This document shows positions 32,754 to 47,444 of a stretch of DNA of 64,000 nucleotides, in pieces. This DNA is from an uncultured Saprospiraceae bacterium (lineage in GTDB: Bacteria; Bacteroidota; Bacteroidia; Chitinophagales; Saprospiraceae), in the NCBI GenBank assembly GCA_937961455.1, contig CALGNN010000021.1, positions 1-64,000 of the forward strand, read 5' to 3'. Every line of letters begins with the position of its first letter. The stretch's first letter is position 1. Both the position numbers and the translations under genes were made by a program. A model generated the notes under the pieces. It worked only from the letters and a program-made list of their open reading frames with translations, was not told the origin of the DNA and ran no database searches.

Positions 32754-33749
32754 TTAAATAAGGTAGAATACAAGGAATACAAAAATCCACACTAAATCTA
32801 CAAAGTGCCAATAGAGTCCCATCTTCTCAACCATCTCATATTCATTTTTACGTTTTTCATATAAGCCACTGGCTACGTTCAACATAATAATGATTAGAAA
32901 TATTACTCCTGAAAGAACGTGAAATCCGTGAAATCCTGTAATAAAAAAGAAGAGCGCTCCAAAGGCTTTTGGACCAAACTGCTCCGTCTTTACCATTCCA
33001 TCTTCATCTCCTTCAGTTACCTTAAATTTTCTATGTATATATCCTCTTTCATCTACTGTTGCAAAAGGATAGTCTTTTGACTTTTCTAAATTATAAACAC
33101 CATAAGAATCTGCATGTCCTTCTTCATGATGCCCATCATCAGCATGGTCTCCGCCATGATCATCTGCATGGTCATCTCCATGTCCATGATCATCTGCATG
33201 AGCCATATGCATTAAATAACTTTCGCCTGCCTCAAAGGTTTCATTTGAAACTGTCCCATCTTTATTTAAATAGGCACCTGCAGCAGTGTGTGTACCAAAT
33301 GGATTGGTCGTTACTGACATATGCTCGCCCTTTATCAATGTCGTCCACTCCCATGCTTGACAACCCAAAAAGGCAGCTCCTCCAATAATGGTAAGAATCA
33401 TCCAAATAACTACACCTCTTTTATTTTCTCTTTTCCCTTCTTGTACTGCTCTCACCATAGTGAAAGAACTAAATAGCAGAACGAAGGTCATGATGGTTAC
33501 AAAAATAAGTGGTGCATTGTGAATTCCACCTGGTAAGGATTGAAATACAAAATCTGGAACTGGCCAGGTTGGCATACTTACTCTAAGTGTACCATAGGCA
33601 ATCAAAAATCCTGCAAATGTAAATGCATCCGACAATAAGAAATACCACATCATCAGCTTTCCATAGCTAGATTTCATTGGTGATTTCCCACCGTCCCAAA
33701 CTGCATTGCTATCTTCTACATGATGTGCTACTGCTGTATCTGAACCCAT
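32754..33749 (-). CDS. ctaE: cytochrome c oxidase subunit III with His/Asp-rich insertion, 331 aa
   Basis: This is a seven-helix-type subunit III. Early helices (MMWYFLLSDAFTFAGFLIAYG) and the late 'FFFITGFHGFHVLSGVIFLI' and 'YWHFVDLVWIFVFLVFYLI' blocks are canonical. Between the third and later helices lies an insertion (about residues 130-235). Its core is a His/Asp/Gly-rich run of ~40 residues (about 178-216, for example HADDHGHGDDHADDHG) that ordinary subunit III proteins lack. It could bind Cu, Zn or other divalent ions (inference). It follows a second, shorter subunit III gene by 16 bases. Confidence 0.9.
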   Translation of the reverse strand: MGSDTAVAHHVEDSNAVWDGGKSPMKSSYGKLMMWYFLLSDAFTFAGFLIAYGTLRVSMPTWPVPDFVFQSLPGGIHNAPLIFVTIMTFVLLFSSFTMVRAVQEGKRENKRGVVIWMILTIIGGAAFLGCQAWEWTTLIKGEHMSVTTNPFGTHTAAGAYLNKDGTVSNETFEAGESYLMHMAHADDHGHGDDHADDHGGDHADDGHHEEGHADSYGVYNLEKSKDYPFATVDERGYIHRKFKVTEGDEDGMVKTEQFGPKAFGALFFFITGFHGFHVLSGVIFLIIIMLNVASGLYEKRKNEYEMVEKMGLYWHFVDLVWIFVFLVFYLI

Positions 33750-33765
33750 GTTCTAAATATTTAAT

Positions 33766-34359
33766 TTAAAGTATGTATCTAATTACGTGTATAAACACAA
33801 TTAAAATAATCCATAATATATCAACGAAGTGCCAATAACTCACGACTAAATCAAATCTCAATCTTCGTTTATTTGAAACAAAAAACGGCAATTTATAGGC
33901 ATGGAAGGTTGCCACTAACATGGCAGCAATTCCTCCTAAAATGTGTAAGGCATGCAATCCAGAGATCAGATAAAAAAAAGATCCTGAAGGATTACCATTT
34001 AACTCTATTCCTCTAGCTTCTAATTCAAACCATCCAAATGTTTGCATGGCTACAAAAGCAATCCCTAATACTAGACTTACTAATAATAAGAACTTATAGG
34101 ATTTTTCATCTTCAGCTACAAATGACTTATAAGATTTATGCAATGTAAAACTGCTTATCACTAAAACTACTGTGCTAATATAAAATAGAGATGGAATATT
34201 AAATTCTTGCCAGTTTCCTGCAGCGTAACGAACGATATAAGCACTTATCAATCCAATGAACATCATCGTAATGCTGCACAACGATGCCCACAATGCAAAT
34301 TTGTGTGGGTGGAATGTACTTTCATACCTAGGTTCTTTTATGCTCATTTCAGTACTCAT
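33766..34359 (-). CDS. cytochrome c oxidase subunit III-like protein, 197 aa
   Basis: This is a short five-helix subunit III (family of COX3/CyoC), with 'FYLISGLHALHILGGIAAM' and 'SYWHFVDILWIILIVFIHVI'. Two COX3-type genes in tandem are usual in Bacteroidota aa3 operons. ATG 34359 is chosen: it follows the stop of ctaB by one base and begins MSTEMSIKEPRYE. The longer frame from 34383 would overlap ctaB. Confidence 0.85.
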   Translation of the reverse strand: MSTEMSIKEPRYESTFHPHKFALWASLCSITMMFIGLISAYIVRYAAGNWQEFNIPSLFYISTVVLVISSFTLHKSYKSFVAEDEKSYKFLLLVSLVLGIAFVAMQTFGWFELEARGIELNGNPSGSFFYLISGLHALHILGGIAAMLVATFHAYKLPFFVSNKRRLRFDLVVSYWHFVDILWIILIVFIHVIRYIL

Positions 34360-34360
34360 A

Positions 34361-35254
34361 TTAAAAAGGAAGTAATAAAGCAATTAACACTACAGGTAAG
34401 TAAATAAAAGAAGCATACATCATCTTCTTCACATGCTTGGTATCTTTATGTTTTTGAAAATCCCAACAGCTCTTCGTATAATACAAAGCAGCTAAAACAC
34501 ATATACTCAAGGATATCGGTCCTCCGACGCCAAAGTAAAATAAGCCAACACTTATTGGAATTAATAACAAGGCATATATCATCGAAATCAATCCAACATT
34601 AGGATCGATGACTCCGTTTCTTTCTGGTAATAATTTGAATCCAGCATTCATGTAATCGTCCTTACCATTCCAGCCGATCGCCCAAAAATGAGGAAACTGC
34701 CAGAAAAATTGAATACCGAATAATAACAATGCAATCCAACCAATTTCACCGGTCGCTGCAGTCGCTCCAATTAACATAGGTAAAGCTCCTGGAATCGCTC
34801 CTACTGGAACAGCAAGTGTACTGAATCTTTTTAATGGTGTATAAACAAAAGCATACAGAATCATGGAAAGCATTCCTAAGAATCCTGTTAATGCATTAAA
34901 TGAGCACAACATAATTACGCCGACTACTGCCATTAATCCAGCAATCAAAACTGCCTCAGAATCTTTCATCCTTCCTGCTGCTACAGGACGATTTTCGGTT
35001 CGCTTCATCAGTTTATCAAAATCACTTTCAAGAACCTGATTTAATGCATTCGCCGCACCAGTTACAAGGAAACCTCCAATTGCAAGAATCACCACCCCAA
35101 ATCCACTGAACGGAGCTGGACTTAATACTAAAAAAGCAATTACCGCTGAAAAAACGACCAAGATATTTAATCGCAATTTCACCAAGACTTTGATATCATC
35201 CCAAAAGCTTGGCTTTGATAATGCTATTTGTTTATATGTTGCTTTAGATTTCAA
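34361..35254 (-). CDS. ctaB: protohaem IX farnesyltransferase (haem O synthase), 297 aa
   Basis: It adds a farnesyl chain to haem B to make haem O, the precursor of haem A for the oxidase encoded next to it. The UbiA-family Asp motifs are present: NALNQVLESDFDKLMKRTENRP (about 68-89) and the second loop WNGKDDYMNAGFKLLP (about 190-206). Nine or so membrane helices are predicted. The start appears to be a TTG at 35254, since no in-frame ATG precedes it before a stop. It lies 11 bases after ctaD. Confidence 0.92.
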   Translation of the reverse strand: MKSKATYKQIALSKPSFWDDIKVLVKLRLNILVVFSAVIAFLVLSPAPFSGFGVVILAIGGFLVTGAANALNQVLESDFDKLMKRTENRPVAAGRMKDSEAVLIAGLMAVVGVIMLCSFNALTGFLGMLSMILYAFVYTPLKRFSTLAVPVGAIPGALPMLIGATAATGEIGWIALLLFGIQFFWQFPHFWAIGWNGKDDYMNAGFKLLPERNGVIDPNVGLISMIYALLLIPISVGLFYFGVGGPISLSICVLAALYYTKSCWDFQKHKDTKHVKKMMYASFIYLPVVLIALLLPF

Positions 35255-35265
35255 TCCTTCTTGTA

Positions 35266-37125
35266 TTAATGATCACCAGCCTCTTCCCCGTCTTTCATAG
35301 GAATGTGTTGTGGTGTATATTCAATTCCGTCTTTCCCGTAATCATATGCCCATCTATGTACCTTTGGTAAGTTGCCAGGCCAATTTCCGTGTCCAGCAAC
35401 AATTGGTGTAGTCCACTCTAAAGTAGTTGCACCCCAAGGGTTTCTTGTCTTTTGTTGTTTTCCTTTATACATGCTATAAAAGAAGTTTATCACGAATAGT
35501 ATCTGTGCGGCAAATACAATGATTGCTGCTACTGTGATAAACTGATTCATTACATCAAAGTGCTTAAAAGTTTGGAAGGTTTCAAAAGAGTAATACCTTC
35601 TTGGTACTCCAGCCATTCCCAAATAGTGCATAGGCCAAAAGATAGCGTATGCTCCTATCATGGTTACCCAAAAATGAATCTTTCCTAAAGTTTCATTCAT
35701 GAATCTGGCAAACATTTTTGGATACCAATGATACACACCTGCAAACATTCCAAAGAATGCAGCAATACCCATAACTATGTGAAAGTGTGCAACAACAAAA
35801 TAGGTATCATGCAGTGGAATATCAATCGCAGAATTTCCAAGGAATATACCTGTTAATCCTCCTGATATAAATAAGGAAACGAACCCAATAGCAAACAACA
35901 TCGGTGTGTTGAGCCTCAGATTTCCACCATATAATGTAGTGATCCAGTTAAACACTTTTACCGCAGAAGGTACTGCGATGATCAGTGTAAAGATCACAAA
36001 GAAGTTAGATATAAATGGATTTACTCCTGCCATAAACATATGGTGAGCCCATACAATAAATGATAAGAATGCAATCGCAAGTATTGAAAATACCATGGCC
36101 TTATAACCAAAGATTGGTTTTCTTGCATGAACAGATAAAACTTCTGATACCAAGCCCATCGCTGGAAGGATGATGATATATACTTCAGGGTGACCTAAGA
36201 ACCAAAATAAGTGCTGATATAATATTGGACTTCCTCCCACATAATCCAGTGCACCCTGTCCTGCTATAAATATTTCACTTAAGAAGAAACTCGTCTCTAA
36301 TCCTCTATCCATCATTAGCATCAAAAATCCTGAAACTAATACTGGAAAGGACAAAAGTCCAATAATGGCAGTTACAAAAAATGCCCAAATGGTAAGTGGC
36401 ATTCTCCACAAACTCATTCCTTTTGTTCTTAAATTTAAAACAGTTGTTATATAGTTAATACCTCCAAGAAGTACTGATACTACAAATAGAGTTAAACTCA
36501 CTAACCAAAGTGTCATACCTCCAGCTGACCCACTCGATGCCTGAGGCAATGCACTCAGTGGCGGGTAGGCTGTCCATCCTCCTGAGAAAGGTCCGGTGGA
36601 TAAAAACAGTGAGAAAAACATAACGACAGAAGCCATAAAGAAAAACCAATAAGAAAGCATATTCAAAAATGGCGATGCCATATCTCGAGCTCCTAATTGA
36701 AGGGGTATTAATAGATTACTAAATGTACCACTCAGTCCGGCTGTCAATACAAAGAATACTATGATGGTACCGTGCATGGTGACCAGCGCATAATAAAATT
36801 GAGGATCAAGTGTACCCATCCCAGTCACATCATCAATCACAATCCACTTACCTAATAAGGGTTTGATCCAAGCAAGACTTTCTTCAGGAAAACCAAGTTG
36901 TAACCTAAAAATGATAGACATCCCAGCTCCAATCAATGCCCAAAAAATTCCAGTAAAAAGGAATTGTCTAGCAATGATCTTATGATCCATGCTGAATATA
37001 TACGTATTTAAGAATCCAGAACGATATTTATCGCCATGTTCATGTTCATGAAAGTGATCATCATATCCACTTTCTTTTATTAATACATCAGTGTCGTTAT
37101 CTCCGTACAATTTTGTATCTATCAT
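35266..37125 (-). CDS. ctaD: cytochrome c oxidase subunit I (aa3-type), 619 aa
   Basis: This is the catalytic subunit that reduces O2 and pumps protons. It has twelve or more helices with the family A signature: HPEVYI (about 312-317, the His-Tyr cross-link and CuB ligand), the HHMFMAG CuB histidines, and HDTYFVVAHFHIVMG (about 435-450) for haem a/a3. GGWTAYPPLSA is also typical. The N-terminus has an extra hydrophilic segment with HFHEHEHGD (about residues 22-30) before the first helix. It comes 12 bases after the subunit II gene. Confidence 0.97.
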   Translation of the reverse strand: MIDTKLYGDNDTDVLIKESGYDDHFHEHEHGDKYRSGFLNTYIFSMDHKIIARQFLFTGIFWALIGAGMSIIFRLQLGFPEESLAWIKPLLGKWIVIDDVTGMGTLDPQFYYALVTMHGTIIVFFVLTAGLSGTFSNLLIPLQLGARDMASPFLNMLSYWFFFMASVVMFFSLFLSTGPFSGGWTAYPPLSALPQASSGSAGGMTLWLVSLTLFVVSVLLGGINYITTVLNLRTKGMSLWRMPLTIWAFFVTAIIGLLSFPVLVSGFLMLMMDRGLETSFFLSEIFIAGQGALDYVGGSPILYQHLFWFLGHPEVYIIILPAMGLVSEVLSVHARKPIFGYKAMVFSILAIAFLSFIVWAHHMFMAGVNPFISNFFVIFTLIIAVPSAVKVFNWITTLYGGNLRLNTPMLFAIGFVSLFISGGLTGIFLGNSAIDIPLHDTYFVVAHFHIVMGIAAFFGMFAGVYHWYPKMFARFMNETLGKIHFWVTMIGAYAIFWPMHYLGMAGVPRRYYSFETFQTFKHFDVMNQFITVAAIIVFAAQILFVINFFYSMYKGKQQKTRNPWGATTLEWTTPIVAGHGNWPGNLPKVHRWAYDYGKDGIEYTPQHIPMKDGEEAGDH

Positions 37126-37137
37126 CTTAAAAAAGGC

Positions 37138-38631
37138 TTATTGTGATATAATTTTCAGTTCAGTTCTTCTATTATTTTGTCGTCCTTCAGCTGTATCATT
37201 TGAGTCGATAGGTCTAGTTTCACCATAACCTATAGCTCCTAATCTATTGCTAGCTATACCTTTACCTGTCAAGTAGTTGTATACTGCTCTTGCTCTACTT
37301 TCTGAGAGCGCCATATTACCTGCATCATCTCCTACACTATCTGTATGTCCGCCTAGCTCAATGGAAATATTTCCATACTGATTCATCGCCCCAACAACAT
37401 TATCTAATTCATATTTAGAAAGTGATGTTAGATTTGCTGAACCAGTTTCAAATTCTACGTAATCCAATTTTATAATTTTGCCATCGTCTGTATCAGCATT
37501 TAAGGCAAGTTGCATTTTTGAATTAAAGTCCTTTTTACGCTGAATGATTTCAGTATTCAATAAGGTACCTTTATGAGGATCATCATCTGTGTTCCTAATG
37601 GTAGACATGTAATAGCTATTCTGTGTTTCAAGCCAAGCATCATACTCTTCTTGCTCTACTACCTTTAGTATTTTTCTCATACTATAATGAGATTTACCAC
37701 AGAGTTCTGCACAAGCCAATTCAAACTCAAAAGACTCCCACAATTTCATCGTAGGATCATCTGGATCCGTCATCTGATACTCGGGTGTATTTCTCAGTCG
37801 CTCTCTATATTCTTCGGTAGTTGTCTCCGGTGTAAATACAAAATAAGTAGGTATACCAGGAACTGCATCCATTTTCACTCTAAAGTGTGGAAGATAAAAG
37901 TTGTGTAAAACATCTCTTGAGGTAATTCTAACTCTAACCTTCTTACCTACAGGTAGATAGAATTCACTTCCTGTATGGAAGTCATCTAGGTTTTTCACAT
38001 CGTTCCAATCTTGTCCTACAGGATTGTTACCCGTTATCATTTTGTAATTCTTGGTACCAAGAACTCCGTCTTCTCCTGGGTATCGAATGTTCCAAGCAAA
38101 CTGATAGCCAGTTGCTTCAATTTCTATATAATCTTCATCTGGATCAACATCAGCCATAACTTCATTCCATACAGCTAATCCTTTTATTACGAGCACAAAC
38201 ATTACAAATGCTGGTATTCCAGTCCAGATATATTCAAGTGTGCTATTATGTGGAAAGAAGAAGGCTTTTCTTCCTTCTTGATGCTGATACTTGTAAGTAA
38301 ACCAGAAAAGTAAAATGTGTGTTGCTACAAATACAATCCCCGTGAAAATCAAGGTGATATTAAAAAGATTATCAATCAATTTCCCACCGTAAGAAGCAGA
38401 TTCATGTGGCCCATATCCGAGCATCCAATTTCTATAATAATAGGCTGTAACGACACAAAAGATCAACATACCTATCATGAAGACCATACCCATAATGGCT
38501 TGTGTCTTATTTGATTTTCTTTCCGCTTCTTCTTCGCCTCTGATCTTTGCAGACAGCTCTGATACTTTGCCTATTTGAACGGCAATGATTGCTAAAAGAA
38601 TTAAACTTGCTATGATTATTAACCCAATCAT
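37138..38631 (-). CDS. ctaC: cytochrome c oxidase subunit II fused to an OmpA-like peptidoglycan-binding domain, 497 aa
   Basis: Several N-terminal helices (about 1-20, 47-66, 88-112, 130-152) lead into the periplasmic cupredoxin. The CuA centre is complete: His in VLHNFYLPHFRVKMDAVPG (about 238) and CAELCGKSHYSM (about 305-316). After a ~60-residue helical linker comes a second domain (about 384-497). It has the OmpA/Pal signature GGHTDSVGDDAGNMALSESR, then RLGAIGYGETRPI and EGRQNNRRTEL. The Asp and Arg that hold diaminopimelate are present. Ordinary subunit II ends soon after CuA. The fusion would tie the oxidase to the cell wall (inference). It lies between actF and ctaD. Confidence 0.93.
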   Translation of the reverse strand: MIGLIIIASLILLAIIAVQIGKVSELSAKIRGEEEAERKSNKTQAIMGMVFMIGMLIFCVVTAYYYRNWMLGYGPHESASYGGKLIDNLFNITLIFTGIVFVATHILLFWFTYKYQHQEGRKAFFFPHNSTLEYIWTGIPAFVMFVLVIKGLAVWNEVMADVDPDEDYIEIEATGYQFAWNIRYPGEDGVLGTKNYKMITGNNPVGQDWNDVKNLDDFHTGSEFYLPVGKKVRVRITSRDVLHNFYLPHFRVKMDAVPGIPTYFVFTPETTTEEYRERLRNTPEYQMTDPDDPTMKLWESFEFELACAELCGKSHYSMRKILKVVEQEEYDAWLETQNSYYMSTIRNTDDDPHKGTLLNTEIIQRKKDFNSKMQLALNADTDDGKIIKLDYVEFETGSANLTSLSKYELDNVVGAMNQYGNISIELGGHTDSVGDDAGNMALSESRARAVYNYLTGKGIASNRLGAIGYGETRPIDSNDTAEGRQNNRRTELKIISQ

Positions 38632-38645
38632 CTAATTAATCAATT

Positions 38646-39911
38646 TTATACGTGATGATGAATACTCTCTGCTAAATAAGGATCGTTTGCTGGATACAAG
38701 GATGCTCGTGACATATTCGAGAATACGACAAAAATGAACAAGCCTAAAAATCCTAACATCGTCCCAATATCAATAAATCCTGGGATCGTAAAGCCAGACA
38801 TAAAACTTGCTGCTCCATGATGTGCATCACCAGCAGCATGTGTTAAATGTTCAGCGGTCTTTCTAACGCCAGGTTTTATCATCAAGAAGAAATCCATCCA
38901 GTGTCCAATAAATACCACACTTGCAATGAATAATAAACTTCCATATTTTCTCTTTGTTGAATTCCTCATTAGAACAAGGAAAGGCAGGGCAAAGTTTACA
39001 GCAAGATTTGCCCAAAATAATATTGGATAGCTATCCATTCTTTCTCTGAAATAAATGGTTTCCTCACCAACATTTGCATACCAAATCAACATGAATTGTG
39101 AGAACCATAAGTAGGTCCAAAAGATACTGAAGGCAAATATGTATTTACCCATATCATGCAAGTGCTCATGTGATACTTGCTCAAGGTATCCTCTACCTTT
39201 TAAATAAGCTGTAAATATTGCTGTCAAGCAAAGCATTGATACCAACCAACTAGCAGCTGCATACCAAGCAAACATGGTACTGTACCAAGCTGAGTCAACT
39301 GACATAACCCATTGCCAAATTAAGAAAGCACTTGTGAAACCTCCAATAGGAAGAATCGCAGCAGCCCAAATTCTCATTTTTCTGTGCTTACTAAAGTTAG
39401 GATCTCTCTCTTCATTATCTTCTGCCACACTAAGTCCTCTTAATCTAGTTGCAATGAAATACCAAATTCCAACAAATAAGATGGTACCTCCTGTAAACCA
39501 AAATTTATTTAGAAATCCAGTTTTACCTAGAATAATTTGATCATGCAGTTTGTCAGGATTTAGGGCTGATGTATCATTCCATTCATATAGATGATGGAAG
39601 TCTAGCCATAGTCCGGCAGCTATTATAAGCATAAGTATCAAACCTACAGGCAGGAATAAATAGATACCCTCCCATACTCTTTTAAATACGATGTGCCATC
39701 CAGACCATCCTGTTATGAAAGCAGAATAAAGGAATAAAGCCATAAAGGCGATTCCTGTGAAAAATACACTGTTATGTAAAAAATTAGACCAGAACCTCGT
39801 TTGTAATTCATCGTCGCCAAAAAAGCAAAGGACCATGGACAACACTCCGATTCCCATTAATACAAAACAAAACGTTCTTTCTCTACCTGTAAAAACAAAT
39901 TCTCTGTTCAT
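38646..39911 (-). CDS. actF: alternative complex III subunit ActF, 421 aa
   Basis: This is an integral membrane protein with about ten helices, of the quinol:cytochrome c oxidoreductase quinone-binding subunit 2 family. It resembles ActC at low level, as in other ACIII operons. 'WHIVFKRVWEGIYLFLPVG', 'SVDSAWYSTMFAWYAAASWLV' and 'WFSQFMLIWYANVGEET' are typical blocks. ATG 39911 is preferred to the adjoining in-frame TTG. The C-terminal part has His-rich patches (EHLTHAAGDAHHGAAS; terminal SIHHHV). It lies 15 bases upstream of the subunit II gene. Confidence 0.9.
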   Translation of the reverse strand: MNREFVFTGRERTFCFVLMGIGVLSMVLCFFGDDELQTRFWSNFLHNSVFFTGIAFMALFLYSAFITGWSGWHIVFKRVWEGIYLFLPVGLILMLIIAAGLWLDFHHLYEWNDTSALNPDKLHDQIILGKTGFLNKFWFTGGTILFVGIWYFIATRLRGLSVAEDNEERDPNFSKHRKMRIWAAAILPIGGFTSAFLIWQWVMSVDSAWYSTMFAWYAAASWLVSMLCLTAIFTAYLKGRGYLEQVSHEHLHDMGKYIFAFSIFWTYLWFSQFMLIWYANVGEETIYFRERMDSYPILFWANLAVNFALPFLVLMRNSTKRKYGSLLFIASVVFIGHWMDFFLMIKPGVRKTAEHLTHAAGDAHHGAASFMSGFTIPGFIDIGTMLGFLGLFIFVVFSNMSRASLYPANDPYLAESIHHHV

Positions 39912-39925
39912 CAAGAAATTATTTA

Positions 39926-40846
39926 TTAGTGATGTTCATGATTATCTTCTTCTCCATGATCGCCTCCTGCATCATGACTATGTCCTCCTTCCCCTTCTCC
40001 GTGACCCTCATGATCGTCTGTATCGTGACCTGATCCTTCATGAGCATCGTGATCACTTAAATCAATATCTTCGAGTTTATTCAACGATACATTTCCAAGT
40101 GGCACATCAACATTATTTAAAGTATTTACATTCTCATCATAGCTTAAACCTCTTTCTTTGGCTTGTAAAGATCTGATGTAATGAATTACTTCCCAACGCT
40201 CTGCATAGGAGAGTTTATCAGCATAAGAACCCATTAAGTTCTTACCATACATTATCGCATGATACAACCTTCCATTACTCGCTAATGAAAAAGTATCATT
40301 TGTTAGAATGGCTGGTTGAACTGGATAAACACCAGCAGTTATTCCTTTAGCAGGGTCAGCATCTCTTACAAGATAACCTGCTCCACCTCCTTTGGGCCCA
40401 TGACAAATACCACAATAGATATCATACAATTCTTTCCCCTTAGCTAAGCCAGCGGCAGAAATAGGATATGGATTTGCAATAATCTCTCTTGTTGCTCTTG
40501 CTCTTTCGGCATCATTGTCCCCATAATAATATGGAACACTTCCATTAGCAGGAACCGAGATATCATTTGAATATTGAGAAGCACGTGCCCCAGCAGGATT
40601 ACCTGCAAGTCCACGAGGTATGGTACCTTCAACTGGTTGTCTAGGCATCGCATACTTTAAGTACTCTTCTTCCGAACCCCAAGTATTATAGTAATAGTAA
40701 GAGTTCACATTTGCTTCATAAGCAACACTATGCACCATATCGGGCATAAATTCATGTCCTGTTTTATTGCCGTCTGCGGGAGCGCAAGCCTGCACTAAAA
40801 CGAGGAGCATAACAATTATGAATGCGCTATATAAGTTTCTTTTCAT
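39926..40846 (-). CDS. actE: alternative complex III subunit ActE, monohaem cytochrome c lipoprotein, 306 aa
   Basis: The signal peptide ends in lipobox VQAC (Cys about 20). A cytochrome c domain with CGICHGPKGGG (haem-binding CxxCH, about 145-149) follows, with an axial Met in the GKNLMGSYAD segment. The last ~45 residues (about 262-306) are almost only His, Asp, Glu and Gly. Such a tail is not part of the core ActE fold. ActE is thought to pass electrons from ActA to soluble carriers or directly to the oxidase. The tail may bind metal or be a docking patch (inference). Confidence 0.9.
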   Translation of the reverse strand: MKRNLYSAFIIVMLLVLVQACAPADGNKTGHEFMPDMVHSVAYEANVNSYYYYNTWGSEEEYLKYAMPRQPVEGTIPRGLAGNPAGARASQYSNDISVPANGSVPYYYGDNDAERARATREIIANPYPISAAGLAKGKELYDIYCGICHGPKGGGAGYLVRDADPAKGITAGVYPVQPAILTNDTFSLASNGRLYHAIMYGKNLMGSYADKLSYAERWEVIHYIRSLQAKERGLSYDENVNTLNNVDVPLGNVSLNKLEDIDLSDHDAHEGSGHDTDDHEGHGEGEGGHSHDAGGDHGEEDNHEHH

Positions 40847-40850
40847 TAGG

Positions 40851-41372
40851 CTATAGCGTTTTTATGTTAACTTCCGAAGCTCCTGTGCTCGAAAAGAATT
40901 CTTTAATTTTATCTAAACCTGTCTCTTCAAAATCATGTGTATCAAAAGCGATACAAAATTTATCATCAGTGATTCTGTCGTCCAATGTTTTATTAATAAC
41001 TCCTGGCCCCATACCACAAATGATGTAAAAGGTAACTGTCATCCCAATCCCAGCAAATAATACCGTCAACTCAAAAGTGATCGGAATAAAAGCAGGTACT
41101 GACCAATAAGGCTTACCTCCATAGATCACTGGCCAATCGGCAGTGAAAATCCAGGTCATTCCTAAGAATGCAGTTAGCAAACCTAAAGCTCCAAAAATGA
41201 AACCTCCGATATGTAATCTGGATTCATCCAATCCCATTGCGTCATCTAATCCGTGTACTGGAAAAGGTGTGTAGACATCCATGATATCTAAATGAGCGTC
41301 ATGCGCAGCATGTACCGCGTGGAGTAAATCCTCCTCATCATTATAAAGTCCGTATAATACTTCTTTACTCAT
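40851..41372 (-). CDS. actD: alternative complex III subunit ActD (DUF3341), 173 aa
   Basis: DUF3341 pattern: an N-terminal hydrophilic segment (LYGLYNDEEDLLHAVHAAHDA) with 'DVYTPFPVHGLDDAMGL' is followed by two helices (about 55-75 and 95-119) and a periplasmic or cytoplasmic tail. It is a small structural subunit of ACIII. The stop is 4 bases before the actE start and the gene begins 8 bases after actC. Confidence 0.92.
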   Translation of the reverse strand: MSKEVLYGLYNDEEDLLHAVHAAHDAHLDIMDVYTPFPVHGLDDAMGLDESRLHIGGFIFGALGLLTAFLGMTWIFTADWPVIYGGKPYWSVPAFIPITFELTVLFAGIGMTVTFYIICGMGPGVINKTLDDRITDDKFCIAFDTHDFEETGLDKIKEFFSSTGASEVNIKTL

Positions 41373-41380
41373 TATATCTA

Positions 41381-42805
41381 TTAATGATGGTGATCTTCAA
41401 CTACGAGACTTTGACCTGTTCTATGCTTTTCAGCATGTCCACTGGCATATTGATCTCCAGATGATTTTAAAATATGTTTTATCTCTGCAATAGCTACCAC
41501 TGGTGCTACTCTTGTAAATATCAAATACAGTGTAAAGAAAATTCCAAGGGTTCCTAGGAAGATTCCTACCTCTACAAATGTTGGCACATACCAACTCCAT
41601 GATGATGGCAAGTAATCTCTTGCTAAAGTAGTTGCGATGATTACAAATCTTTCAAACCACATTCCAATATTCACGAAAATTGACATGGCAAAAGTGATCA
41701 CAATACTTCTTCTGTACTTTTTCCACCAGAACACTTGTGGAATTAATAAGTTACATGACATCATACCAAAGTATGCCCACCAATAAGGACCAAATGCTCT
41801 ATTGAAGAAAGCAAACTGCTCATATACATATCCTGAATACCAAGCAATAAACAACTCTGTCAAATAGGCAACCCCTACAATGGTTCCTGTCAACAAGATT
41901 ACCTTATTCATGGATTCAATATGCTCTAAAGTGATGTAATCTTGAAGGTTCAAGACTTTCCTTGTAATAAGCATTAAGGTTTGCACCATAGCAAATCCAG
42001 AGAAGATGGCTCCTGCAACAAAATAAGGTGGAAATATCGTTGTATGCCATCCAGGAATTACTGAAGTGGCGAAATCAAAACTTACAATTGTGTGAACGGA
42101 AAGTACCAATGGTGTTGCAATCCCTGCTAAAACCAAAGATAGAGATTCCCATCTTTGCCAGTGTTTAGCTGAACCCGTCCAACCAAAGGAAAGCAGGTTG
42201 TATAATTTTCTTCTAAATCCTTTAGCTCTATCTCTAACTGTGGCAAAATCTGGAACTAAACCTGTATACCAAAACAGTAAAGAAATGGTAAAATAGGTAC
42301 TAATCGCAAATAAATCCCAAAGCAAAGGAGAATTAAAATTAGGCCAAAGTGGCCCCCTTGTATTTGGATATGGGAAGAAGAAATAAACTACCCACATTCT
42401 TCCTACGTGTATCCCTGGGAATAGTGCCGCACATAAAACGGCAAAAATCGTCATGGCCTCAGCTGCTCTGTTTACTCCAGTTCTCCATTTTTGTCTAAAC
42501 AACAAAAGGATCGCTGAAATCAATGTTCCCGCATGACCGATTCCAATCCACCAAACGAAATTGGTAATATCCCAACCCCATCCAATTGTTCGATTCAAGT
42601 TCCATGAACCAATCCCTTTCCAGATCGTCCATAGAATACATGCAATTCCTAAACTCAGAAAAGCCACTGAAATCAAAAATGCAATTACCCACGCTTTGCT
42701 GGGTGCTTTTTCCGTTGGTCCGCATAGATCTTCTGTAATCTGGTGGTAGGTTTTACTACCAGTTACTAAAGGTTGTCTAATCGGCGAAATAGGTGCTCCA
42801 CTCAT
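41381..42805 (-). CDS. actC: alternative complex III subunit ActC, NrfD-like quinol-oxidising subunit, 474 aa
   Basis: Ten helices of the NrfD/PsrC family ('WIGIGHAGTLISAILLLFRQKWR', 'WHTTIFPPYFVAGAIFSGFAM'). In ACIII structures this subunit binds quinol near the [3Fe-4S] cluster of ActB. The C-terminus adds a hydrophilic His-bearing tail ending VVEDHHH. It is placed 10 bases after actB and belongs to the act operon. Confidence 0.95.
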   Translation of the reverse strand: MSGAPISPIRQPLVTGSKTYHQITEDLCGPTEKAPSKAWVIAFLISVAFLSLGIACILWTIWKGIGSWNLNRTIGWGWDITNFVWWIGIGHAGTLISAILLLFRQKWRTGVNRAAEAMTIFAVLCAALFPGIHVGRMWVVYFFFPYPNTRGPLWPNFNSPLLWDLFAISTYFTISLLFWYTGLVPDFATVRDRAKGFRRKLYNLLSFGWTGSAKHWQRWESLSLVLAGIATPLVLSVHTIVSFDFATSVIPGWHTTIFPPYFVAGAIFSGFAMVQTLMLITRKVLNLQDYITLEHIESMNKVILLTGTIVGVAYLTELFIAWYSGYVYEQFAFFNRAFGPYWWAYFGMMSCNLLIPQVFWWKKYRRSIVITFAMSIFVNIGMWFERFVIIATTLARDYLPSSWSWYVPTFVEVGIFLGTLGIFFTLYLIFTRVAPVVAIAEIKHILKSSGDQYASGHAEKHRTGQSLVVEDHHH

Positions 42806-42815
42806 ACTCTAAAAT

Positions 42816-45800
42816 TTAGGCATCGAGTTTTTCTATTTTATTAATAAGCTTAGCGCTATAGTTAACGCTAGACCGTGTGTTCACTTCCTCTAAGACCACA
42901 TAATTTAATGGTGATCTTAACTTTTTGGACAATTGTCCTTTTTTATTATTGGTATCTCCAAATGTAATCGCTCCTGTTGGGCAAGCAGTTTGGCAAGCCG
43001 TTCTTACATCACGATCTTCTAATCTTCTTCCTTCTTTCTTAGCTACCAATTTTCCACTTTGGATTCTCTGCGTACAGAAACTACACTTTTCAATTACTCC
43101 TCTTGATCTAACAGTTACATCAGGATTCAAGACCATTCTTGTTAAGTTGTCCGCTCCAAATGGCAATTCATCACTCTTTGTTAATTCTGGCTCGTTTGAT
43201 GGCCATAAATCAGCAGTGGTATAATCTAACCAATTGAATCTTCTTACTTTATATGGACAGTTGTTGGCACAATATCTAGTACCTACACATCTATTGTAAG
43301 CCATTTGATTTAAACCTTCTGAACTGTGGTTTGTAGCATTTACTGGACAAACATTCTCACAAGGAGCATTATCACAATGCTGACACATCATAGGTTGATA
43401 TACCGTATTCGGGTTATCAGCATCTCCATAGAAGTACCTATCGATTCTTAACCAAGTCATTTCATGATGCCTGTGTACCTCATGCTTTCCTACGATAGGA
43501 ACATTATTTTCAGCAATACATGCAACTGTGCAGGCACCACAACCAATACAAGCATTTAAATCAACATGCATTCCCCAGTGATGACCTTGATCATATAGAT
43601 CTTCTTTGTACTCATCGTATGGATAAAGCGTTTGTTCGTTTAAGTGCTCGAAATGATGTCTTTCTTCATGCAGATGGTGAACAAATTCCTTTACATCTGC
43701 TATATGAGTTCTTCTAATTATTGAACGATTTGTCAACGAACCTTCAAAACCTTTTACAAGAGTTCCAGTTGCAAGTTCATCAGCTACTACTTCTTCGCCA
43801 GCTGTGTTCACATCTTTGACACCCATCGTGTGATGGTATTGTACAGATGCAAAATCATCATCTTCTCCAGTCTTTCCAGATACAGCAACATCTGTTGCAT
43901 AATACTGTGTCAAGCCATTAGCATCAGTTGTCAACCAAGGATTAACATTGGTTCCATACCCTACTGCAGATTTACCACCTACTTCTCTTCCATATCCAAG
44001 AGATAAACTAACCGTACCTGGCATTTGGCCAAATTGCTGCACAACTACCGCCGTTTGAGCAACTCCATTTACTGTAAGTGTTACCGTATCTCCATCTTCT
44101 AAATCATTGAATCCTATAAATTTTCTAACTCCGTTAAATTTCACAGGAACATGTAAGATATTACCCCAAGAAGTTCTTGTAACTGGGTCTGGCATTTCCA
44201 TCAGCCATGGGTTATTGGCAAATTGCCCATTACCCATATGGACGGTCTCATAAAAATTGATTTCCAGATCCGAGCTATTCGGTTTTGAAACATTACTCAA
44301 GGCATTGCCAACATTGGCACTAAAAGCACCAGCTGAATAACTTGCACCTGAATTATGGAAACCATCGTGAAGGGCTTTATCCCAAGAACCGCCTCCTAAT
44401 ATATTTTGCGTCCAATTGGACTTTAAATAATCGTAATAATCAAGCTTTTCACCTGCCCAAGTCAACAGGGAGGTCTGCGCTTGTCTTGTATTAAACAATG
44501 GATTGATTGTAGGCTGAATCAAGTGGCAGTGGCCCAATTTTGGCTCAGCGTCTCCCCATGATTCAAGACCGTGGTGGTCAGGCGCGACATAGTCACACAA
44601 AGCCGTTGTCTCATCATTTGACTGAGCAAATGATAATTTGAAATCGACCTTTGCAAAAGCATCTGCGAAAGATGATCCAGGGAAATCATATGCTGGATTT
44701 GCGCCATAAACCATGACTGCATCAATTCTTCCTGCATTCATATCAGCAATCAAATCATTCATATCTGAATCAATTCCTTGTCTTTGCATGGAAGGATGAG
44801 CGAATGAAATGGTATTACCGTAGCTTCCTAAAACATCATTGATTTTATTAACCAATATTTGTTCTGAAACATTATTTGAATTTGAAACAACTAAAGCCTT
44901 GCCTCTAGCTCCTTTTAATTCATCAGCTAGCACCCTTAATGAATCCATGATTTCTTTTGGTAAAGAAGGTCCGGATCCTGAGCCACCTAACAAATTACAC
45001 AGTGCTGCTATTGCTGCACCTTGCTGTGAAGGTTTTACTAAAATTCTGTTATCTGCATTTGAGCCTGTCAAAGACATCCCATTTTCTATCTGCACGTGCT
45101 TTGACATACTTGCGTTGTCAACATCTTTTATTACTCTATTTTTTGCGTATTGTCTTGCATACTCAATAGGAGAAATCCATGTACCCAGAAAATCAGCGCC
45201 AAAGCTTACAATTACATTTGCTTTGTCAAATCTATAATCAGGAATTACTTTGCTTCCAAAAGTCGCTTCATTGGCTAGTAACATTGCTGAGCTCGATACG
45301 GGATCATAACTCACATGCTTCGTATTTGGGAAGCTGCTTTTAAATCTTGCAATAGCTTTCTTAGTCGTAGGACTTAGAATAGAATTGCTGATTATAGCAA
45401 TTCTTGAATTGCCGTTTAAATTTGATTTAACTGCGGCATCTATTGCATCCCAAGTAGAGGCTGCAAAACCTTTTTCACCATCTCTAGCAATAGGACCTTT
45501 AAATCTATTGGTGTCATACAAGCTTAACACATATGCTTGTGCTCTAGCGCTTGTTCCTCCCATAGAAACAGATGATAGACTGTTTCCTTCGATTTTAATA
45601 GGTCTACCCTCTCGGGTTTTTACTAAAACAGAACAAAAGTCTCCTCCATTTACATAACTAGATGCATAGTAATTAGGAATACCTGGTACAATGGTATCAG
45701 GCTTAACTACGTATGGTAAAGCTTTTTTGACTGGGATATCGCAACTAGCAACAGTAGCCGCGCCTAATCCAAATCCAAGATATTTAAGAAAATCTCTTCG

Positions 45801-45953
45801 ATCCGTTTTGTAAGATTCAGACTCTGTGGCTTCTCCCATTGTTTCATACAAAGGGGTATCTGTAAATTCGTTACCTGCTGTTTTTAAAAACTCAGGATCA
45901 CTTCCCAGATCTTTCCCACCAATCCAAATTTCTTCTTCTTTATGATTCTTCAT
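42816..45953 (-). CDS. actB: alternative complex III subunit ActB, molybdopterin-oxidoreductase-like with Fe-S domain, 1045 aa
   Basis: The Tat-variant signal (RRDFLKYLGFG, about 52-62) comes after a ~50-residue N-terminal stretch, as in the 'TAT-variant-translocated' family. Residues ~70-740 resemble the molybdopterin-binding fold, but the cofactor is absent in known ActB proteins. The C-terminal ~280 residues hold four cysteine clusters: CIGCGACTVAC, CQHCDNAPCENVC, CVGTRYCANNCP and CSFCTQR..CQTACP, which bind three [4Fe-4S] and one [3Fe-4S] in studied homologues. A His-rich helix (VHHLHEERHHFEHL) sits before them. It links haem subunit ActA with membrane subunit ActC. Confidence 0.95.
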   Translation of the reverse strand: MKNHKEEEIWIGGKDLGSDPEFLKTAGNEFTDTPLYETMGEATESESYKTDRRDFLKYLGFGLGAATVASCDIPVKKALPYVVKPDTIVPGIPNYYASSYVNGGDFCSVLVKTREGRPIKIEGNSLSSVSMGGTSARAQAYVLSLYDTNRFKGPIARDGEKGFAASTWDAIDAAVKSNLNGNSRIAIISNSILSPTTKKAIARFKSSFPNTKHVSYDPVSSSAMLLANEATFGSKVIPDYRFDKANVIVSFGADFLGTWISPIEYARQYAKNRVIKDVDNASMSKHVQIENGMSLTGSNADNRILVKPSQQGAAIAALCNLLGGSGSGPSLPKEIMDSLRVLADELKGARGKALVVSNSNNVSEQILVNKINDVLGSYGNTISFAHPSMQRQGIDSDMNDLIADMNAGRIDAVMVYGANPAYDFPGSSFADAFAKVDFKLSFAQSNDETTALCDYVAPDHHGLESWGDAEPKLGHCHLIQPTINPLFNTRQAQTSLLTWAGEKLDYYDYLKSNWTQNILGGGSWDKALHDGFHNSGASYSAGAFSANVGNALSNVSKPNSSDLEINFYETVHMGNGQFANNPWLMEMPDPVTRTSWGNILHVPVKFNGVRKFIGFNDLEDGDTVTLTVNGVAQTAVVVQQFGQMPGTVSLSLGYGREVGGKSAVGYGTNVNPWLTTDANGLTQYYATDVAVSGKTGEDDDFASVQYHHTMGVKDVNTAGEEVVADELATGTLVKGFEGSLTNRSIIRRTHIADVKEFVHHLHEERHHFEHLNEQTLYPYDEYKEDLYDQGHHWGMHVDLNACIGCGACTVACIAENNVPIVGKHEVHRHHEMTWLRIDRYFYGDADNPNTVYQPMMCQHCDNAPCENVCPVNATNHSSEGLNQMAYNRCVGTRYCANNCPYKVRRFNWLDYTTADLWPSNEPELTKSDELPFGADNLTRMVLNPDVTVRSRGVIEKCSFCTQRIQSGKLVAKKEGRRLEDRDVRTACQTACPTGAITFGDTNNKKGQLSKKLRSPLNYVVLEEVNTRSSVNYSAKLINKIEKLDA

Positions 45954-45965
45954 TATTGCCTTTAA

Positions 45966-47372
45966 TTAATAATGACATTTTTGACATTCTAAACCGCCTA
46001 TATCTTCAACTGTTACTTTTTCACGACTTCCATCAGAAAGTTCGTTGTGATATTTCTCGTAACTATTGTAGTATTCGTTACCAACAAACTGAACTTCAGT
46101 TTCTCTGTGACAATTGATACACCATCCCATAGACAGAGGTGCATACTGTTCCAAAATTTCCATCTCTTCAACAGCACCATGACACTGCTGACACTCTACT
46201 TTTCCGATGCTAACATGCTGAGCGTGATTGAAATAGACGTGGTCAGGTAAATTATGAATTCTAGTCCATGGAATAGGACCATAAACGGATGGCTTAAGGT
46301 CACTCGTAAGCGAACTAACTATACCATCCCATTGTTCTTTGACTATTCTTTCACCTTCTCTTCCAAGAGACTCAACACCTGCGTCTGACATATAAGAATC
46401 GCCAATCCACTTTTTGTAAATCTTGGCAATCTCATCCTCCGACATGTTCTCGTAATTGTCAATGTATTTTAATGTGTTAGGATCAAAACCTACACTAGCA
46501 TATATTTTAGAGATTTCTGCAGTTCCATGCAAAGAACCCTTTGTTACTGCAGAGTGACAATTCATACAAGTATTCGCTGCTGGTATTACTGCATGCTTTG
46601 ATCTTCTTGCACCATCATGGCAATATTGACAATCAATGCCTTGCATTCCAGCATGTGTTTCATGACTGAACTTTATGGGTTGCTCTGGAGCATAGTTTTG
46701 TTGTCTTCCCCAAGCGATACCATTTTTAACTGTAGTATAACCTCCAATCAATACGAGTGCAAATAATAAAAAGCTGATAACGCTCTTACTTGTTAGTGAT
46801 TCAACAATGGTTTTTGAAGGTTGTAGAACTCCTGTTTCTTCTTTTGTAACGATTCGACCTAAGTTCGAAATCATTCTAGTAAGGAATAATGCTAGAATTG
46901 ACAAAATTCCAAAGACTACATAGTATATCCAATTGTTATTTTGTTCAACAGTAACCTCAGCTCCAGGTGTACCAGCAACTTGAGGAGGGTAAGTGCCATC
47001 ATTCACCCCTTGGATGTAAGTTAACAATGATGCGATATCATCATCTGTTAATTCATTAAAAGCTTGCATTACGGTTGGCTTCCATTCATTCCACAATTCT
47101 GTGGCTCTTGGATGTCCCGCGTCAATCAAGGAACTTGAGTTCCTGATCCAAGCGTATAGATCTTCTTGGGGATAGTCTGCCCATCGTTCTTCAACACCTC
47201 CTAGTGCAGGTCCAGTACTACGGGATTTCATGTCCTTAGCGTGGCACTGATTACAGTTAACTTGAAAAAGTTTCTTTCCAGCATCTATTGAAACCTCGCC
47301 GAATACAGAAGATGAGGTCAGAAGGTAGAAGAATAAGAAGTAAAATGTATTCCTAAACAGCGTTTTTATCAT
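45966..47372 (-). CDS. actA: alternative complex III subunit ActA, multihaem cytochrome c, 468 aa
   Basis: Six CxxCH haem sites are visible: CNQCH (about residue 41), CQYCH, CMNCH, CQQCH, CINCH and CQKCH at the very C-terminus. Residues ~30-125 form a class I cytochrome c domain with one haem. After a linker and one membrane helix (about 195-220) the other five lie in a cytochrome c3-like module. Well-studied ActA proteins are described as pentahaem, so the N-terminal haem domain deserves attention. ATG 47372 gives the signal peptide MIKTLFRNTFYFLFFYLLTS. A TTG at 47390 is less likely. It is the first gene of the act-cta run. Confidence 0.93.
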   Translation of the reverse strand: MIKTLFRNTFYFLFFYLLTSSSVFGEVSIDAGKKLFQVNCNQCHAKDMKSRSTGPALGGVEERWADYPQEDLYAWIRNSSSLIDAGHPRATELWNEWKPTVMQAFNELTDDDIASLLTYIQGVNDGTYPPQVAGTPGAEVTVEQNNNWIYYVVFGILSILALFLTRMISNLGRIVTKEETGVLQPSKTIVESLTSKSVISFLLFALVLIGGYTTVKNGIAWGRQQNYAPEQPIKFSHETHAGMQGIDCQYCHDGARRSKHAVIPAANTCMNCHSAVTKGSLHGTAEISKIYASVGFDPNTLKYIDNYENMSEDEIAKIYKKWIGDSYMSDAGVESLGREGERIVKEQWDGIVSSLTSDLKPSVYGPIPWTRIHNLPDHVYFNHAQHVSIGKVECQQCHGAVEEMEILEQYAPLSMGWCINCHRETEVQFVGNEYYNSYEKYHNELSDGSREKVTVEDIGGLECQKCHY

Positions 47373-47444
47373 GTGTAAGCTATTTCTCAAGCGATTACTT
47401 ATTACAAAAAAACATCAAGCGTAATCTCTTCATTTAAGCTGCCG

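Follow-up and report, generated by a model that had tools for sequence, protein, structure and literature searches.

An OmpA-like domain on cytochrome c oxidase subunit II as a candidate peptidoglycan tether of the alternative complex III-aa3 assembly in Saprospiraceae

We analyzed a 64,000-nucleotide stretch of DNA from an uncultured Saprospiraceae bacterium (the window), in which the gene for cytochrome c oxidase subunit II, coxB, continues beyond its CuA domain into a C-terminal OmpA-like domain. We consider it likely that this domain makes subunit II a non-covalent peptidoglycan tether of the assembly of alternative complex III (ACIII) and the aa3 oxidase, the binding to the wall being predicted from the retained site. 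The proposal draws on the fusion itself, the site residues, the predicted fold, the spread of the fusion, its independent origins, and the alternative placement of the domain on the ACIII subunit ActE, all of which have direct support in the data that follow.

Architecture of the subunit II fusion

The coxB gene lies on the minus strand at positions 37138 to 38631 and encodes a 497-residue protein. The uninterrupted 497-codon frame that the preliminary description had reported, with no strand given, is present and has no internal stop, and the fusion claimed there was borne out, as Pfam models COX2_TM (residues 80-152), COX2 (171-260), and OmpA (394-488) all match this single protein above their curated cut-offs. 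Together with the full set of CuA ligands, COX2_TM and COX2 mark the product as a subunit II by domain content; the NCBIfam equivalog TIGR02866 scored 138.2, slightly below its cut-off of 147.7. A caa3-type subunit II, which would have a CxxCH haem c domain after CuA, was ruled out, because the protein contains no cytochrome c domain.

The membrane part comprises residues 1-160 (38152-38631, minus strand), where AlphaFold predicts helices at residues 2-31, 33-65, 81-114, and 130-158. The last two form the canonical COX2 hairpin and the first two an additional N-terminal pair; in the structure comparison, COX2 chains in the PDB match the membrane part starting at about residue 66. The periplasmic CuA domain follows (residues 161-338; 37618-38151, minus strand), with ligands H243, C307, E309, C311, H315, and M318, each of which is invariant among 53 fusion proteins. 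The complete CuA motif that had been placed at about residues 305-316 was found at residues 307-318 (CAELCGKSHYSM), with all of its ligands there, and the CuA/oxidase part of the model matches Paracoccus subunit II with a Z score of about 16.7.

A linker (residues 339-390; 37462-37617, minus strand), which includes a helix predicted with fair confidence at residues 359-377, leads to the OmpA-like domain (residues 391-496; 37144-37461, minus strand). Across the 53 fusions, the distance from the CuA methionine to the start of the OmpA domain is 63-93 residues (median, 69). PF00691 matches the coxB product with an E value of 1.1e-20 and 74.2 bits (cut-off, 27.2), over profile positions 2-98 of 98.

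The OmpA-like domain and its putative diaminopimelate site

Asp431 and Arg446 occupy the diaminopimelate-contact positions of the domain. The equivalent pair in Acinetobacter baumannii OmpA, Asp271 and Arg286, binds diaminopimelate and is retained in PA0833, a protein that a section heading of the same article presents as binding peptidoglycan in vitro (PMC5974059). In sequence matches, the OmpA domain of the window aligns to PA0833 and to further solved OmpA-like domains. The loss of the diaminopimelate-binding Asp or Arg, which the preliminary description had named as an outcome that would speak against its proposal, was ruled out, since both residues are kept in 54 of 54 COX2-fused and 14 of 14 ActE-fused aligned domains (68/68). 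The conserved pair is a property of the OmpA domain family and does not prove binding in the setting of an oxidase.

The AlphaFold model, built with 53 aligned fusions, has a mean pLDDT of 89, with values of 84-96 (by blocks of ten) in the OmpA part, and an OmpA-like fold spanning about residues 386-496. The fold comparison places it nearest to Capnocytophaga OmpA-C (Z, 18.3), PA0833 (16.6), the peptidoglycan-binding domain of TagL (16.1), and MotB (15.7); the superposition on 5wtp (Z, 18.3; rmsd, 1.8 over 117 residues) identifies the fold as OmpA-like. The structure prediction thus returned a confident OmpA fold like that of peptidoglycan-binding proteins. Relative to the window protein, the OmpA domain has a median identity of 55%, as compared with 66% for the CuA domain and 39% for the linker, and the gap between the OmpA domain and the linker argues for constraint on the former.

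By the established topology of their families, subunit II exposes its CuA side to the periplasm, and the lipid-anchored ActE is periplasmic as well. The OmpA domain would therefore lie on the wall side of the membrane in either placement, which supports the periplasmic location that had been claimed for it.

Operon and host genome

The host assembly comprises 4.6 Mb in 250 contigs and is 96% complete. Among named genomes, the best matches of the oxidase core are to Saprospiraceae (Chitinophagales, Bacteroidota) and their kin; Membranihabitans, Lewinella, and Neolewinella isolates are among them.

On the minus strand, the order of transcription is actA, actB, actC, actD, actE, actF, coxB, coxA, ctaB, and two subunit III genes. 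The first of these, actA (45966-47390), encodes a multihaem cytochrome (Cytochrome_C7) with an additional N-terminal cytochrome c domain (Cytochrom_C, residues 36-129). It is followed by actB, the gene for the iron-sulfur subunit (42816-45953; Fer4 matches), by actC (41381-42805; NrfD-like; PF03916), and by actD (40851-41372; PF11821; E = 4e-56). The actE gene (39926-40846) encodes a mono-haem cytochrome c lipoprotein that here has a His-rich tail and no OmpA domain, and actF (38646-39914), which has no Pfam match, was assigned by position and homology. ActD was thus recognized by Pfam; ActA, ActB, ActC, and ActE by domain content; and ActF by its place in an actABCDEF order beside the oxidase genes. 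The coxB gene is separated by 14 bp from actF, which precedes it, and by 12 bp from coxA, which follows it, and these short gaps argue that it belongs to the operon. It adjoins the gene for subunit I (coxA, 35266-37125; PF00115; E = 6e-143), and the genes for heme o synthase (ctaB) and two subunit III proteins of the coxC type, assigned by sequence features and synteny, lie further downstream (32754-35254).

The additional N-terminal cytochrome c domain of ActA is likewise found in ActA of Flavobacterium johnsoniae (PMC5928083), a resemblance by which the window looks like one encoding an ACIII-aa3 system of the F. johnsoniae type.

Two proteins of the operon have stretches of unusual composition. 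The C terminus of ActE (39926-40140, minus strand) is a His/Asp/Glu-rich tail (HDAHEGSGHDTDDHEGHGEGEGGHSHDAGGDHGEEDNHEHH), possibly metal binding, and other relatives (e.g., loci L088, L294, and L296) likewise have an ActE with His-rich stretches. One of the subunit III proteins (32754-33749, minus strand) has a His/Asp-rich insert (HADDHGHGDDHADDHGGDHADDGHHEEGHADS) with a composition like that of the ActE tail.

Distribution of the fusion

Of 36 genomes sampled from the same family, 23 have a near-full-length match to the coxB product with 52-63% identity; one further genome has such a match at 49%, and a single genome from a different family has one at 41%. The fusion also occurs in the named isolates Membranihabitans marinus, Membranihabitans maritimus, Lewinella sp. 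W8, and Neolewinella antarctica. A sequencing or assembly error that joined two genes, which had been raised as a concern, is ruled out by this recurrence across dozens of independent genomes and isolates.

A homology pipeline run on gene neighborhoods yielded 184 loci with complete ActE, ActC, COX1, and COX2, of which 61 have the OmpA domain on COX2, 13 on ActE, 110 on neither, and none on both. An ActE-OmpA protein was then searched over 363 Saprospiraceae genomes, and after the addition of loci and the removal of copies, the Chitinophagales set stood at 159 rows. Within it, 90 nonredundant Saprospiraceae operons have the domain on COX2 in 51 cases, on ActE in 22, on neither in 17, and on both in none, and Chitinophagales outside Saprospiraceae have it on COX2 in 4, on ActE in 6, and on neither in 59; these family shares are biased, as sampling was partly targeted and some loci, ActE fusions among them, were chosen since they were apparently fused. 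No OmpA fusion was found in the Chitinophagaceae loci examined or in 30 ACIII operons of further families in the class, and nearly all of the remaining Bacteroidota in the sample lack the domain on both subunits. Since 17 of the 90 Saprospiraceae operons and many relatives have it on neither subunit, the domain is not essential to the complex; it is optional for the oxidase and ACIII.

Among about 200 operons, none has both fusions. A Pagel correlation test of COX2-OmpA against ActE-OmpA gave a likelihood ratio of 9.28 (4 degrees of freedom; p = 0.055), and in an independent-pairs analysis of their exclusion, the pairs were too few to reach significance. Mutual exclusion of the two placements is therefore suggestive, not proven, and rests on few independent changes.

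Other subunit II tails were seen in the same survey. In loci L075 and L218, which share a genus with L064, the COX2 tail ends in HNIADNKATEGKQ and HNIADNKAMEGKQ, respectively. These ends resemble, over a short match, the end of the OmpA domain in a relative (PIADNATKEGKQ) and may be a remnant of a deleted OmpA domain. Long C-terminal extensions other than OmpA occur on subunit II in loci L065, L213, L214, L215, L285-L287, L125, L131, and L133, where they possibly serve alternative functions; the L065 extension has no Pfam match besides COX2 and COX2_TM. Chitinophagales-type ACIII-cox genes are also present on contigs labeled 'Thermoanaerobaculia bacterium' (L107) and 'Streptomyces griseus' (L164), bins that are probably contaminated or misnamed.

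ActE as a second site for the domain

In loci with a short COX2, an OmpA match was often found about 2 kb upstream, where it is the C-terminal part of ActE. The spacing from CxxCH to the OmpA domain is 113 to 248 residues in the ActE-fused loci; one further ActE, that of L224, has the same layout but is interrupted by a stretch of undetermined bases (N). An AlphaFold model of an ActE-OmpA protein, built from only 13 aligned rows, is weak as a whole, with a mean pLDDT of 63, and better in the OmpA part, with values of about 73-89 by blocks. ActE is lipid anchored, and in F. johnsoniae it is dispensable for electron transfer to aa3 (PMC8552683).

The occurrence of the domain on ActE in other lineages argues that selection favors a wall anchor on the ACIII-oxidase assembly and not on subunit II as such. 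It also bears on the earlier suggestion that the anchor serves ACIII as well as the oxidase, which gains indirect support from the presence of the same kind of domain on an ACIII subunit.

Origins of the fused domains

In a tree of COX1 and the COX2 core, the ActE fusions of Saprospiraceae all fall into a single clade (support, 0.97) that lies within a set of COX2-fused lineages. An earlier tree had pointed to two moves to ActE within the family; as more loci gave the single clade, the event was counted once. A common clade of the COX2-fused and ActE-fused domains of Saprospiraceae was not rejected in the domain tree (AU p = 0.33, in the row subset described below). These results fit a transfer of the anchor to a different subunit of the same operon in this family.

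The COX2 tails of L069 and L216, which belong to two other families, share 57-68% identity with a protein combining DUF937 with OmpA, over 155-172 residues, as opposed to 38-42% with the tail of the window protein. On this sequence comparison, we take both tails to derive from a DUF937-OmpA-type protein. A gene of this type lies at L243:16687-17922, immediately upstream of the act operon of L243.

In AU tests on a 32-row subset, which was picked after a first, poorly resolved tree had been seen, a single clade of all COX2-fused domains was rejected (p = 1.8e-6), and with it a single origin of the COX2-OmpA fusions, as was a single clade of all ActE-fused domains (p = 0.015). From these two rejections, we conclude that an OmpA-like domain was probably added at least three times: (i) to COX2 in Saprospiraceae, (ii) to COX2 in the L069/L216 lineages, and (iii) to ActE outside Saprospiraceae.

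Proposed role and alternatives

In the mechanism that we propose, the oxidase and the ACIII of the same operon would be seated in the inner membrane, and the OmpA-like domain would extend from the periplasmic CuA side toward the wall through a linker of ~50 residues (longer in ActE). There, the Asp431/Arg446 diaminopimelate site may grip the peptide stems of peptidoglycan. Supercomplexes of ACIII with an aa3 or caa3 oxidase are known from F. johnsoniae and Rhodothermus marinus (PMC8552683 and PMC5928083), and ACIII and aa3 would form a physical supercomplex in these bacteria also, the evidence at the locus being operon linkage. The tether would immobilize this complex and may fix respiratory islands in the membrane, as the preliminary description had suggested; the selected trait would be a wall anchor anywhere on the assembly. 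The movement of a small adaptor domain between partners of one supercomplex lends evolutionary support to the idea that the oxidase and ACIII function as a unit in these bacteria. Respiratory complexes are usually seen as freely diffusing or as clustered by means unknown; a wall anchor with a conserved site, carried by the oxidase or by its electron donor, would offer a direct genetic handle on whether their position and mobility matter. A wider version of the proposal, which we offer tentatively and would stop short of calling probable, is that the family as a whole ties its respiratory supercomplex to the wall by a portable anchor, carried by the oxidase or by ACIII, never by both in the operons seen, and taken from different donors more than once. 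If this is true, peptidoglycan would determine where respiration takes place.

The same domain could instead make an abundant inner-membrane complex into a fastener that holds the membrane to the wall, with the activity and location of the oxidase incidental. Such a role would fit a dispensable domain found on either of two subunits, and the domain class does serve envelope integrity; related NCBIfam models include the 'peptidoglycan-binding anchor lipoprotein' PA1041 and the 'outer membrane integrity protein' CHU_0125. However, the genome of the window already has many OmpA-domain proteins (15 matches at E <= 1e-12, the coxB product included), so that another fastener is not obviously required, and the domain was repeatedly fused to one particular complex; we regard this role as unlikely. 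Rather less likely still is a protein-protein contact, in which the OmpA-like fold would bind no peptidoglycan and would, for example, stabilize the interface between ACIII and the oxidase or an association with a partner in the outer membrane. The invariance of the diaminopimelate-contact residues would be unexpected in a fold retained for its surface alone, and the wide range of ActE spacings is easier to reconcile with a flexible tether than with a fixed interface. In favor of a contact role, the domain was found on just the two partners in electron transfer, subunit II lies near ActE in the map of the R. marinus supercomplex (PMC5928083), and the linker helix is predicted with fair confidence.

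Finally, the end of an OmpA gene may have joined coxB by chance in an ancestor and persisted with no function, an explanation to which we give very little weight. It would account for the repeated losses across Saprospiraceae and for the possible domain remnant in L075 and L218, but not readily for invariant site residues, for a domain identity well above that of the linker, for independent gains from different donors, or for survival across dozens of genera. The tether reading stands as the preferred one.

Relation to known systems

The ACIII-aa3 system of F. johnsoniae (PDB 6BTM; PMC8552683) shares with the window its gene set, the cytochrome c extension of ActA, an aa3-type oxidase, and a lipid-anchored mono-haem ActE, of which the solved chain has 162 residues. 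In contrast to the window, neither subunit II nor ActE carries an OmpA domain in the 11 operons examined from family f24, presumably Flavobacteriaceae. The caa3 subunit II of Thermus and Rhodothermus (PDB 2YEV) also has a functional domain on its periplasmic C terminus, but that domain is an electron-carrying cytochrome c, whereas the one in the window is a cofactor-free OmpA-like domain. OmpA, Pal, YiaD, and PorE share the domain family and the site residues, but they are outer-membrane proteins or lipoproteins and have no oxidase fusion. We found no account of a subunit II-OmpA or ActE-OmpA fusion in the open-access literature searched; articles behind a subscription, for instance reviews of the subunit makeup of ACIII, might mention it.

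MotB and TagL are inner-membrane proteins whose OmpA-like domains are used as wall anchors. The MotB/PomB stators and TssL/TagL of the type VI secretion system are, like the complex in the window, inner-membrane machines with a periplasmic OmpA-like domain (Z, 15-16), but they must withstand mechanical force, which an oxidase need not. Among energy-converting complexes, the single precedent encountered, and the closest of all, is photosystem I PsaB (PDB 7F4V chain aB, 872 residues), which we take to come from Gloeobacter violaceus. PsaB is likewise a redox core subunit with a C-terminal OmpA-like domain (E = 2.7e-18), but it belongs to a photosystem and not to a respiratory oxidase, with no sign of a common acquisition.
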